Assembly (NCBI GenBank): GCA_002104895.1
Contig: MCFG01000103.1
Location: forward strand, 76,001 to 140,000
Direction of reading: 5' to 3'
DNA length: 64,000 nucleotides
Source of the DNA: Anaeromyces robustus
Taxonomy: Eukaryota > Neocallimastigomycota > Neocallimastigomycetes > Neocallimastigales > Neocallimastigaceae
The notes below the pieces were generated by a model that saw only the letters and a list, made by a program, of their open reading frames with translations, ran no database searches and was not told the origin of the DNA. Both the position numbers and the translations under genes were made by a program. Below are positions 35,143 to 56,131 of the stretch, piece by piece; the stretch's first letter is position 1; each line of letters opens with the position of its first letter.

Positions 35143-38454
<3,312 letters not shown>

Positions 38455-38632: not shown

Positions 38633-39970
38633 AATAAAAAAAATATCTATATAAAAATTAAAAAAATATAAAATAAAAACTATTATTATTTTTTTAAGTA
38701 ATAATAGTTTTTATTATTACTTAAAACAATATAAATATATACTAAAAAAAAAACGAAAATCTAAAACAACATCAAATAAATAAAATATAAATCTAAATTA
38801 TAAAAAAAAAAAAAAAAAGTAATAAATGTATAAAGATGTTTTATTACATTTGTTAATTTATATATTAATAATAAATTAAATACTATTTGTGTTTCATCTT
38901 TTTTCTTTTATTCAATGAAATTATTTTAAATGTTATGTAATATATTTATAATTTTTAATTAATTTAATTAGCATATTTTTGTAATTTAGATTTGTATTCA
39001 AAAAAAAATTATTTTTTTAAAAATAAATGATCCATTTTAATATAATTTAAATAATTTTATGATTAAATAATTATTTTAATTAAATAAAATGTGAGTACAT
39101 TCTTTAATTATTGATGTTTTTTTTTATATGAATATTTTTTTTTTTTTTTTTTTATTGGTAATAAATAATAATAATTTTTATTTTTTTTTATGGTTGTCAT
39201 TTTTAAAATATTTTATGAATTTTTTTTTTTCATTATATATAAAGTTAATGATATTAATTATATTATTATAAGCTTTAAATTCTAGTTGTAGAGCATTGAT
39301 TAAAAAACCTGCTATCTTTTTTTTTCAATAACTTATTTTAAATGCTTTAGTAATAAAATAAAAAATAAAGTTTTGTAGTTAATGGTTAAATTCATTTAAT
39401 CAAATAAAGTATGATTTCATATATTAAAGTTGTTTAAACTTTACTATTTCGTATAGGAAATTTTTATGAAAAAAAAATTAATTAGATATAAGGAACGATT
39501 GCTAATATTTTAAATTATAACTTTTTTATTTAAAAAAAAAAAAAAAAATAAAATAATTAAAATTATAAAATTATAATTTTAAAATTTTTATATTGACATT
39601 ATTTTATTATAATTAATTATCGAAGAAAGTGTAATAAACTATCTGATATTTTTTTTCTTTTTTTTTTTTTTTTTTTGAAATTTTCATATAATTAAAATTT
39701 GATATATTAAAATATATATAATAAATTATATTTTTTTAAATATCGATTTAATTATTTAGAATTTGTATTTTGATATTTTATTTTTTATTCATTTTATTTA
39801 TTTTACTAAAGTAATTAGAATAGATAGTTAATTAATTTTATATATGATAAGGAAAAAAAAAGTTACGAGCAATTAATAAAAATATAATAAAACTAAAAAA
39901 TATATATAATTTTTTTTTTGTCATTAATAAAAAAAAATAGAAATTAATATATAAATAAAAAAAAAAAAAA
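38455..39970. other. Intergenic, calreticulin to EF-hand gene
   Basis: Two same-strand genes are separated by 1.5 kb of AT-rich DNA with long A and T runs (such as 38590-38630). It should hold the calreticulin polyadenylation site and the downstream promoter. No further gene is seen. Confidence 0.5.
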
Positions 39971-44500
<4,530 letters not shown>

Positions 44501-45156
44501 ACTTATCCAATTATTATTATATATGTTACATTAAATATTTATTTTTTTTTTATTTTATTATGCATTTCATTTACAAATATTATATTATTACTACAATTTT
44601 TATTGCAATTATCAATTTTTCACCACATTATATATATTAGTATATATACTAAACTTATTTTTTATATTTATTTAAAAAAATTTTTTTTTTTTCCTTATTT
44701 CAATACTTTTTTTATACAACCAATATTATAAGTTATATTCTTTATAATATTTATTTTATCTTTCATTATAAAACAATACATAAAAACAATTTTTAATATA
44801 TTATAAATACTATAATTTTATTATTATTTGTTTTAAAATTGTATATATTTAATGTATGTATTTTAATATATATAAAAAAATATTTTAAACTATAATAAAA
44901 CTAAATAAATGATCATAATAACCAATCATGTTATTATACAAAATAAATTTAACCAATCAAGTATTTTTTTAACATATAAAAATGAAAATTTTATAATTCA
45001 TTTATTTTTTTACTTCATAATAAAAAAAGAAATATTAATATAAGAATAATTATATAATATAATTATTATGATATTAATATGAAGATAAGTAATATGAAAA
45101 AAACTTTTAAATAAAAGGTAAATATTAGTAATTTATTTTTAAAGAAAAGCGTATAT
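44501..45156 (+). promoter_or_regulatory. Intergenic with two CCAAT boxes before snoRNA cluster
   Basis: CCAAT occurs at 44932-44936 (in ATAACCAATCAT) and 44953-44957 (in TTAACCAATCAA), about 200 bases before the first snoRNA. ATAACCAATCAT also occurs, in reverse orientation, upstream of the ribosomal P1 gene near 55117-55128. This suggests an RNA polymerase II promoter for the cluster that is shared with ribosomal genes. The 5' part is the 3' flank of the EF-hand gene. Confidence 0.5.
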
Positions 45157-45265
45157 AGAATTATATTAAATTTAAATGATGTGAAGTTCCAACCTGAAAC
45201 TTTATATGATGAATTACGGTTATAAACCAAGAATTCCTCGTTTCTGATATATTTAATATAATTCT
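45157..45265 (+). ncRNA. C/D snoRNA, snR57-like (18S G1572 guide)
   Basis: Box C ATGATGT (45176-45182), box D' CTGA (45194-45197), box C' ATGATGA (45206-45212) and box D CTGA (45244-45247). A 15-bp terminal stem brings the ends together (AGAATTATATTAAAT with ATTTAATATAATTCT). The guide GAATTCCTCGTT next to box D is complementary to the conserved 18S segment AACGAGGAATTC. The fifth base before box D pairs with the G of AACG, which by counting from yeast C1639 is G1572, the snR57 target. It directs rRNA 2'-O-methylation in the nucleolus. The second guide (GAAGTTCCAAC) has no target I recognise. Confidence 0.88.
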
Positions 45266-45375
45266 TAAATATAATATTTAACATATATTAATAAGTTAAT
45301 ATAAGATAATATAACTAATAATCTTTTATTAATTTATAGGTAAATATTATTGTATATTTAATTAATAAATAATTA

Positions 45376-45460
45376 TATTTTAAGTGATGTGACTATCCAT
45401 ATTTATTTAACATGATTCCTGAATGAAACACCTGGAACATGCACCACCATCTGATAAAAT
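45376..45460 (+). ncRNA. C/D snoRNA, snR55/U33-like (18S U1269 guide)
   Basis: Box C GTGATGT (45384-45390), a D'-like CTGA (45419-45422) and box D CTGA (45451-45454). The short terminal stem is ATTTTA/TAAAAT. The guide CATGCACCACCA before box D is complementary to the universal 18S sequence TGGTGGTGCATG. The fifth base before box D pairs with the U two bases before the snR40 site G1271, that is U1269 in yeast, the target of snR55 (human U33). Box C' is poorly preserved, which suits a snoRNA using only its D guide. Confidence 0.88.
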
Positions 45461-45625
45461 TTTTTTTTAAAAAAGATAAATATTAATAATAAAATTATAA
45501 ATACTAATAAATATATACATATATATATTGGTTTTTAGGAATAATATTTATTATTAAATATTATTTATTTAAATTCAGAAATGGTAAATATTTTTTAATA
45601 TATTTATGATACTATTTTAATATTC

Positions 45626-45728
45626 ATTGTTTTTTTTAAATGATGATTGGTAATTGTCCAGTTCTGCTACTGAAAAAGCATGCTGATATTTTACCTTTGC
45701 TTACCTTTTACTGATAAAAAAAAGCAAT
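45626..45728 (+). ncRNA. C/D snoRNA, snR61/U38-like (25S A1133 guide)
   Basis: A consensus box C ATGATGA (45640-45646), D' CTGA (45670-45673), C'-like ATGCTGA (45680-45686) and box D CTGA (45711-45714). The terminal stem pairs TTTTTTTTA with TAAAAAAAA, extended by ATTG/CAAT. The guide CCAGTTCTGCT before D' is complementary to the large-subunit rRNA sequence AGCAGAACTGG. The fifth base pairs with the A after GC, the site methylated by yeast snR61 (A1133) and human U38. The guide next to box D has no target I recognise. Confidence 0.87.
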
Positions 45729-45840
45729 GAATGAATAATAATAAATAAAATAAATAATAATAATATTAAAATACTAAATAACTAATATGATTATTATTAT
45801 ATAAATAGAATATAGGGAAAATATTTATAAAAAATGAAAT

Positions 45841-45968
45841 AACGACACATTTGCAGTATTATTATTTCTGATAAGTGAGATAGTAATGATTCCCAGTGTC
45901 GAATAGTAAAAGATGTTATTTTAATATATGTTTTTCTTTAATATAAATAGAATTAATGTATGACAGGT
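45841..45968 (+). ncRNA. Probable H/ACA snoRNA at end of cluster
   Basis: The hairpin has a 6-bp lower stem (CGACAC 45843-45848 with GTGTCG 45896-45901). An internal pocket has arms ATTTGCAG and ATTCCCA, topped by a 12-bp upper stem with G-U pairs. One base later comes ATAGTA (45903-45908), which fits the H box ANANNA. It lies 14 bases after the pocket, the distance expected for pseudouridine guides. An ACA at 45963-45965 could be the 3' box, but the second hairpin is weak. The rRNA target was not identified. Its position right after three C/D snoRNAs supports co-transcription. Confidence 0.6.
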
Positions 45969-47400
45969 AGCATCGAAATTTTTTTTTTTTACAAAAAAAT
46001 TTAAGAAAAATAGTTTTAATAATGTAGTTCATTATTAAATGTAATATTTTTTTTTAAATTTATTGTAAAAATTTATTATTTATGAAATAAAAATAATGAA
46101 AGTAAAAATAAAAGTAAAAAAATAAAATGAATGTCTTTTATATTATTGTATATTATTATTATATTATGAATATAATTTATCATTTTATGCTTAAGTGTTA
46201 TTACAAATCATTCAAATTTAAATATTATCTGTATTTTTATATTTTAAATTTTAATATATTTATATTTTTATATTTTTAATATTATGAATATTTTTTGTTG
46301 TTTTATGATTTATTTAATGTATTATATTTGTTTAAATATTTTTCTACAATATCTGTTATATAATTTATAAAGAAAAAAAAATGAAATAATTATAAATATG
46401 AGTTATATAATAAAAAAGACTAAAAAAAAATTTTATCAAAAAATTTATTATAAAAATAGTCTATTAATTTCTTATATTTATTTTAATTTTCTATAAATGT
46501 ATTAAATTATATATATATATATAAACATGGGTATTCTCTTCCTTTTGTTTAAAAAAAAAAAAAATAGGTTAAACTTAATCTGTTTTGTATCTGATGATAT
46601 AGTTATATATTAGATACTAATGCTGCTAAAGCTACAAATATATATAAGATTTTTGCATGGAAGTGATTTCTATTCCTTTAGTCTAAAATATATATGTTGA
46701 ATTTCTGCCTTAAATTTCATTTATGTTATTTTAATAATAATAATGAAAATAATATAAAGTCTTGACCATTAGGTTTTTAGTTATCATATCTTTAGAGATA
46801 TCTATAAAGCATACTTTTTCAATTTAGATAATTTTTTTTTTCTTCTTCTTTAAATAACTTATTTATAAAAGTATATTTATAATAGTTATAGTATAAATAA
46901 TGTTTTAATCGGTGGAGAGAATTAGTAGTAATATTAATAATAGTGATATTAAAAACACAAATGTTAATCCTTTAATTCTTTTATTAATATATTATAAAGT
47001 AAGCATTTTTTTTATGTTATCAAAAACTTTTTACTAATGTAAATTAATATTGAAGAATTACAGGTCTAGTATGAAATATTTACTATTTTTTTTATTATTA
47101 TACTGATTTCCATTAGATTTAACAATATTTTCAACTTCTCATTTCTCATTGCTTGGTTTATTATTATTTGTCTTTTTATACATGTATTTAATATTGAATT
47201 TTCAATAAAAATGATATATATAATATATATTTTCTCATACCCTATCAATTCGAATAACAATATGTTAATTATTTGATATGTGTTCAACTGTTTTCTATGA
47301 CAGTCTAATTAGTAAGTAATAATAACAAATTTTTTTTAGAACAATTAATAAATGGATAAATAAACTTATAAATAAATAAATAAATAAATAAATAAATGAA

Positions 47401-55238: not shown

Positions 55239-56131
55239 ATGTCCACTCAAGAAACTGCTCTTGTTTACGCTGCTTTAATTTGCCAAGACTCTGACGTCGA
55301 AATTACTGTATGTTTAATTTAATTATTTTAAATCTAAGTTTTTTTTATAATTATTCATTTAAAAAATATAAATTTAATAAAATTGGATATATAATTATTA
55401 ATCGGATCATCAGTAAATAAATAATTCAGTAAAAATGAAAATATTCAAAATTCTTAATTAAATATTTCAATATATGTATAAAAATGTGTTAATTTTTGAT
55501 GTTATTAATATACAGAATATGTTATCAAACAATAAATATATTCAATATTTTAAATAATCAATAATTAAAGAAACAGAAATTTCTTATACAAGAAAGTAAT
55601 CAATTTGAGAATAAATAATTAATATATAAAATAAATTTTATATAAATATAAATAGGCTCAAAACCTCTCCAACCTTCTTAAGGCTGCCAATGTCGAAGTT
55701 AACGATGTTTACTCCAATGTCTTCGCCAAGGCCTTAAACGGTGCTGATGTTGCTGGTTTCATTGAAAAGCTCTCTGTTGGTAAGTGACAAAAAAGGATCT
55801 TTTAATTTTTTTTCTATATAAATAATTGATTTTATTATAAATAATATTAAAAATATATAATATAATAATATTATTGAACTATTAAAAACAATAGCTGCTC
55901 CAGCCGCTGGTGCCGCCGCTCCAGCTGCTGCTGGTGGTGCTGAAGCCCCAGCTGAAGAAGCTAAACAAGAAGAAGAAGAAGAAGAAGAATCCGACAGTGA
56001 CATGGGTTTCGGTAAGTCTATACGAACATAAATAATAAAATATAATCTTTATTTTTGAAAAATTTTTAAAAAATATTTTTTATTAACTTTTTTAAATAAT
56101 TTATATAATTACAATAGGTCTTTTCGATTAG
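55239..56131 (+). CDS. RPP1: 60S acidic ribosomal protein P1
   Basis: Four exons: 55239-55307, 55656-55779, 55895-56011 and 56118-56131, giving 107 residues, the usual length. The N-terminal dimerisation domain starts MSTQETALVYAALICQDS. An Ala/Pro/Gly hinge and a Glu-rich segment follow, then the invariant end SDSDMGFGLFD. P1 pairs with P2 on the ribosomal stalk via P0 and recruits elongation factors; the C-terminal peptide makes that contact, and the serine is a CK2-type site. The start resembles P1 rather than P2. The last exon has only 14 bases, encoding GLFD. Codons are far richer in C and G third bases (GCC, CTC, AAG, TTC) than in neighbouring genes, as expected for very high expression. 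Confidence 0.97.

Follow-up and report, generated by a model that had tools for sequence, protein, structure and literature searches.

Three box C/D snoRNAs were found on the forward strand of the window (the whole 64-kb stretch of DNA analysed; 14.5% GC and 85.5% A+T), each inside a predicted intron of its own. The features of the locus are listed below.

44921-44982, forward strand: possible promoter (tentative), with two ACCAATCA motifs (44921 and 44952) and a TATA-like TATAAAAA at 44975
45118-45339, forward strand: predicted intron 1, 222 nt, opening at AAAAG/GTAAATATT, hosts the snR57 equivalent
45157-45728, forward strand: snoRNA trio snR57, snR55 and snR61, in the yeast order
45157-45265, forward strand: snR57-equivalent box C/D snoRNA with terminal stem, from boxes, stem and guide
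45231-45242, forward strand: snR57 guide for an 18S G (yeast G1572 equivalent), 12 of 12 Watson-Crick pairs
45340-45538, forward strand: predicted intron 2, 199 nt, opening at TATAG/GTAAATATT, hosts snR55
45377-45460, forward strand: snR55/SNORD33 box C/D snoRNA (RF00133)
45438-45449, forward strand: snR55 guide for an 18S U (yeast U1269 equivalent), 12 Watson-Crick pairs
45539-45583, forward strand: inferred internal exon between introns 2 and 3, 45 nt, bounded by inferred splice sites
45584-45808, forward strand: predicted intron 3, 225 nt, opening at AAATG/GTAAATATT, hosts snR61
45635-45717, forward strand: snR61/SNORD38 box C/D snoRNA (RF00476)
45658-45668, forward strand: snR61 D′ guide for a 25S A (yeast A1133 equivalent), 11 of 11 Watson-Crick pairs
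45842-45965, forward strand: candidate exonic H/ACA snoRNA (tentative), downstream of intron 3

The boxes, the guides and the gene order were read directly in the DNA. C and D boxes were present in all three elements, as in box C/D snoRNAs; a canonical C′ box was found in snR57 alone. An Rfam scan of both strands of the 64 kb at the gathering threshold gave two matches in total, RF00133 and RF00476. The RF00133 match, snR55, barely passed (45.0 bits vs. a cut-off of 44), with box C (GTGATGT) at 45384 and box D at 45451. When the 70-Mb genome (70,169,043 bases in 769 contigs) was searched, the window copy was the best of two RF00133 matches at E ≤ 1 (E = 1.5e-5, above the cut-off), and 1 of 14 prokaryote controls matched at this E-value, none above the cut-off. 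The 6-bp terminal stem of snR55 was uninformative and no better than chance, because 592 of 1722 other placements were as good, and its folding energy was reached by 30 of 200 shuffles. Judged by sequence, snR55 is above the RF00133 gathering score and carries a guide to the U1269 equivalent. The second, weak SNORD33-like match of the genome (G000:C37:33819-33898; 26.6 bits, E = 0.53) is possibly an snR40/U32 relative that guides a neighbouring site.

The RF00476 match, snR61, also barely passed in the window scan (45.7 bits vs. a cut-off of 45), with box C (ATGATGA) at 45640, D′ at 45670 and D at 45711. The window copy was the best of six genome matches at E ≤ 1 (E = 4.1e-6), where it aligned to part of the model and scored 32.5 bits, below the cut-off; 10 of 14 prokaryote controls matched at E ≤ 1, none above the cut-off. 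Its terminal stem was 9 bp long (45 of 1722 other placements as good), and 4 of 200 shuffles had a folding energy as low. Taken together, snR61 is at the gathering score of RF00476 in the window scan and has a predicted D′ guide to the A1133 equivalent. In the D region of snR61 (45684-45714), a TTTGCTTACC stretch lies ahead of box D and, by eye, could pair with GGTAAGC(AGA), which adjoins and overlaps the A1133 target; the stretch may make an additional contact with rRNA. The Rfam snR61 consensus there is UACCAAA, which would pair with UUUGGUA. The TTTGCTTACC stretch is also found in Tetrahymena TtnuCD8 (RF02285), a family that shares the snR61 D′ guide and GCUUACC before box D and scored 37.3 bits here; unlike a member, snR61 falls below the family cut-off of 70.

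The first element had box C (ATGATGT) at 45176, D′ (CTGA) at 45194, C′ (ATGATGA) at 45206 and D (CTGA) at 45244. Its terminal stem paired 45157-45171 with 45251-45265 in 15 perfect bp, equalled by 0 of 1722 other placements, and its folding energy was reached by 2 of 200 shuffles. The snR57 model (RF00474), whose cut-off is 50, scored 20.1 bits and gave no support because a match on the opposite strand scored nearly the same (19.7 bits). In the 70-Mb genome RF00474 found no match at E ≤ 1, the window copy included, and 5 of 14 prokaryote controls matched at that E-value, none above the cut-off. Therefore, guide pairing carries the case for snR57, and since the score is under the gathering cut-off we describe the element as a functional equivalent and not as a member of RF00474. 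The check by Rfam families that the initial annotation had proposed thus succeeded for snR55 and snR61 and failed for snR57.

The guides were scored by pairing the nucleotides that precede each CTGA with a 912-nt stretch of the 18S 3′ region of L001, an IMG/VR contig identified by Rfam SSU_rRNA_eukarya that comes from another organism and is not host rDNA; L001 was the one of three contigs with the 18S pattern that Rfam called rRNA. When the 141 CTGA motifs of the window (67 forward, 74 reverse) were all ranked, the boxes of snR55 and snR57 came first and second (12.3 and 12.0), with the next best at 9.3. The snR55 duplex reached 13 pairs when one G-U was counted, its target being TGG[T]GGT with U at D+5, and the D+5 nucleotide of snR57 was the G of AAC[G]AGG (both in L001). 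From this G, 229 nt remained to the end of L001, taken as the 18S 3′ end. In yeast, with an 18S length of 1800, 228 nt follow G1572. The D guide of snR57 is thus, by predicted pairing, directed to the 18S G1572 equivalent. The seven CTGA boxes of the snoRNAs were also scored against L125, again from another organism, with nt 1-130 of its reverse complement as the target. We take L125 to be 28S, and L138 agrees by eye; Rfam called no rRNA on either. The snR61 D′ guide paired with AGCAGAACTGG in L125, placing D′+5 on the A of AGC[A]GAA. The D′ boxes of snR57 and snR55 formed no duplex of at least 8 within the L001 and L125 stretches. Pattern matches to the snR55 guide and to the snR61 guide were each found in more than 100 stretches of viral and prokaryote collections, and none was taken as a relative.

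One DNA query of the host genome with the L001 18S returned six pieces (L297-L302) on five contigs (C340, C216, C301, C261 and C90) and no intact functional host 18S. Five of the pieces were at 74-85% identity and one at 92%; they are scattered and AT-eroded and look like decayed rDNA fragments. A comparison with host rRNA, as the initial annotation had suggested, was partly run on them. The snR55 target was intact in L302 and altered in L300 and L301, and the snR57 target differed by two changes in L297 and by a single change in L298. A 120-base 28S/25S query of the host genome gave no match, a result that shows little without a positive control.

Each snoRNA was preceded by one GTAAATATT, at 45118, 45340 and 45584, and these were the only three on the forward strand of the 64 kb. 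Intron 1 contained just one CTAAT resembling a branch site, 21 nt from its end. Introns 2 and 3 contained the branch-like ACTAATA, with the branch A 31 nt and 23 nt before the end, respectively, and all three introns ended at the first AG after the site. GTAAAT-ACTAATA-AG triples occurred five times in the window (four forward, one reverse), and three of the five were the introns of the trio. This splice-signal anatomy was read directly in the DNA, and the intron calls follow from it (GTAAATATT...CTAAT...AG) as a rule uncalibrated on proven introns of the genome. By the inferred splice sites, introns 1 and 2 abut (TATAG/GTAAAT), forming a zero-length exon. No stop-to-stop frame of at least 80 aa overlapped 44211-47065 on either strand of the unspliced DNA, which fits a non-coding host. 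Upstream, the ACCAATCA motif of the possible promoter occurred 7 times on both strands of the window vs. 1.2 expected from shuffles, with the pair at the cluster 31 nt apart; the TATA-like TATAAAAA run was read by eye. A DNA search of the host genome with 45100-45820 gave 111 matches. Only the window itself covered the query, and the other listed matches (up to approximately 180 bases) were taken as AT-rich background.

We infer transcription, splicing and methylation of the cluster as follows. RNA polymerase II would produce one transcript across snR57, snR55 and snR61, from which the three introns would be spliced out, with introns 1 and 2 meeting at the zero-length exon. Because these two introns abut, removal of intron 1 would bring the intron 2 donor directly against exon 1, and splicing would be stepwise. 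Each intron would be debranched and trimmed to one box C/D snoRNA, and the snoRNAs would guide fibrillarin to 2′-O-methylation of 18S G1572, 18S U1269 and 25S A1133 (yeast numbering).

We consider it unlikely that the snoRNAs, though genuine and clustered, lie in exons and are released from a transcript that is not spliced, as in Saccharomyces cerevisiae, with the splice-like motifs arising by chance. At 85.5% A+T, GTAAAT (37 forward and 51 reverse occurrences in the window) and CTAAT are common, and over both strands of the window GTAAATATT was at chance level (8 found vs. 8.6 expected). Yet the only three forward-strand copies all fall here, one per snoRNA, and downstream of each there is just one CTAAT, placed 21-31 nt ahead of the AG that comes next. 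Moreover, most or all such snoRNAs are intronic in fungi beyond S. cerevisiae and its close relatives, according to the portion of PMC3596301 consulted. The trio is therefore probably not a plain polycistron of the yeast type, with each snoRNA in its own predicted intron. Of the yeast-like polycistron proposed in the initial annotation, the linkage of the trio held and the bare polycistron probably does not.

A different doubt concerns the first element, which might be a C/D RNA of another kind, or match by chance, beside a real snR55 and snR61. Its RF00474 score far under 50 (20.1 bits, with 19.7 on the opposite strand) and the lack of any RF00474 match genome-wide at E ≤ 1 would agree with this, but we regard it as very unlikely: the element places 12 Watson-Crick pairs to 18S beside its D box, which ranks second among the 141 CTGA motifs, has a 15-bp terminal stem (0 of 1722 other placements), shows C, D′, C′ and D boxes, and stands first in the cluster, as expected. 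Finally, the trio could have been assembled independently in this lineage and not have stayed linked since the common fungal ancestor. Fungal snoRNAs do move between loci, as snR72, U45 and U55 illustrate in the part of PMC3596301 used here, but the members, the order, the strand and apparently the layout of one snoRNA per intron are the same as in Rhizopus and Basidiomycota. Parallel assembly of all these seems extremely improbable. We conclude that the locus very probably represents fungal snoRNA cluster II in a Neocallimastigomycete, in the form of a host gene with snR57, snR55 and snR61 in order.

The stretch at 45842-45965 is possibly an H/ACA snoRNA, with the balance tilted somewhat against it. 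Its 5′ hairpin has a 6-bp lower stem, an internal loop and a 12-bp upper stem, and it is followed by an ATAGTA hinge at 45903 and an ACA at 45963. This hairpin was stronger than expected (z = -4.5; 0 of 200 dinucleotide shuffles as strong), and its energy was reached by 10 of 5329 same-length windows in the 64 kb. As a whole, 45842-45970 was not unusual (z = -1.5; 12 of 200 shuffles as low). The 3′ stretches ending at 45966 were poor (only about -4 kcal/mol), and a stronger 3′ hairpin reaching 45975 (0 of 200 shuffles) draws the ACA into the stem region. The SNORA63 model (RF00092) scored 23.2 bits (E = 0.1), below its cut-off of 90, and found no match at E ≤ 1 in the 70-Mb genome or in any control. 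An rRNA target for the candidate was sought by reasoning alone, and none was found.

Dockerin-type domains in very large number, together with a very high A+T content, mark a eukaryotic genome as that of an anaerobic gut fungus (Neocallimastigomycota). A first look for PF02013 (CBM_10, fungal dockerin-type) gave 683 candidates in the genome, and all 150 that were scored were above the cut-off; 0 of 14 controls was positive, these being prokaryotes that cannot separate one fungus from another. Together with the 14.5% GC of the window and the 70-Mb genome, this makes an anaerobic gut fungus the most likely host. Upstream of the cluster, 39959-44210 (forward strand) is likely a multi-exon gene with EF-hand-like repeats, and EF-hand_6 was below its cut-off in one of its ORFs. 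ORFs at 36307-38454 (forward strand) resemble calnexin/calreticulin exons by eye, and 35825-36325 is approximately 500 bases of near-pure trinucleotide repeat with several open frames. On the reverse strand, 55734-56048 holds an alanine/proline-rich ORF with 53-70% GC (60-nt windows) in a window of 14.5% GC; by eye it resembles the tail of a ribosomal stalk P1/P2 protein read in antisense.

In the sections consulted of Luo 2013 (PMC3596301), snR57-snR55-snR61 constitutes cluster II, present in nearly all fungi analysed. It is intronic in Basidiomycota and Rhizopus and unspliced in S. cerevisiae and its close relatives; Euascomycetes lost the snR57 intron from the cluster and several groups lost internal exons. 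The yeast guides, as given in the part of PMC5199042 examined, are snR57 for Gm1572, snR55 for Um1269 and snR61 for Am1133. The present trio has the linkage, strand and order that define cluster II, as far as its DNA can tell. It shares with the Basidiomycota and Rhizopus clusters an apparent intron for each snoRNA, and with the ascomycete clusters, in the same portion of Luo 2013, introns that abut without an exon. It differs in coming from what is most likely a gut fungus, outside the groups named in those sections (the word "chytrid" occurs 0 times in the text of the paper), and in the possible exonic H/ACA RNA downstream. Compared with S. cerevisiae SNR57-SNR55-SNR61, the targets (PMC5199042) and the order (Luo 2013) are the same in the passages used, whereas the transcript there is unspliced (PMC3596301) and introns are predicted here. 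In Candida relatives the cluster undergoes nested and recursive splicing, and the exon between cluster introns is likewise absent or of negative size; in contrast to the ordinary Rfam family found here, snR61 there is a hybrid with U45 (PMC5033589, from the excerpt considered).

The initial annotation had described three box C/D snoRNAs on one strand with guides for 18S G1572, 18S U1269 and 25S A1133, and both statements were confirmed, with the boxes in the places it gave, duplexes of 12, 12 and 11 pairs, and G, U and A at the fifth position. Its order, snR57-snR55-snR61 as in yeast, agreed with our Rfam matches, boxes and guides when set against the consulted part of PMC3596301, and its view that the trio is kept in a very distant fungus stood as well, the host looking like a distant fungus outside the groups named in that part of Luo 2013. 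An ancient cluster is supported, although as a conclusion it is not new, having been published in PMC3596301 (within the portion seen here). Five snoRNA clusters are highly conserved between yeast and Neurospora crassa, by the excerpt of PMC2780460 used, so that with Luo 2013 the conservation of the cluster was already established and the new point is the lineage. In the literature searched we found no report of the cluster in Neocallimastigomycota; Canzler 2018, "The fungal snoRNAome", may cover the lineage. PMC3511168, PMC8817022 and PMC9196750, in the parts consulted, provide background on the sites and nothing on the cluster outside fungi.

The predicted abutting introns at snR57/snR55 add a separate case, of use in asking whether zero-length exons go back to an ancestor or arose repeatedly. 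It seems rather doubtful that this zero-length exon is old and present already in zoosporic fungi, and that the last exon encodes an H/ACA snoRNA; if true, ordered recursive splicing of one non-coding gene would yield guides for methylation as well as for pseudouridylation. Beyond Dikarya and Rhizopus, the trio would now be linked in a zoosporic fungus of anaerobic habit too, and therefore the cluster and its layout of one snoRNA per intron probably date from an early fungal ancestor.
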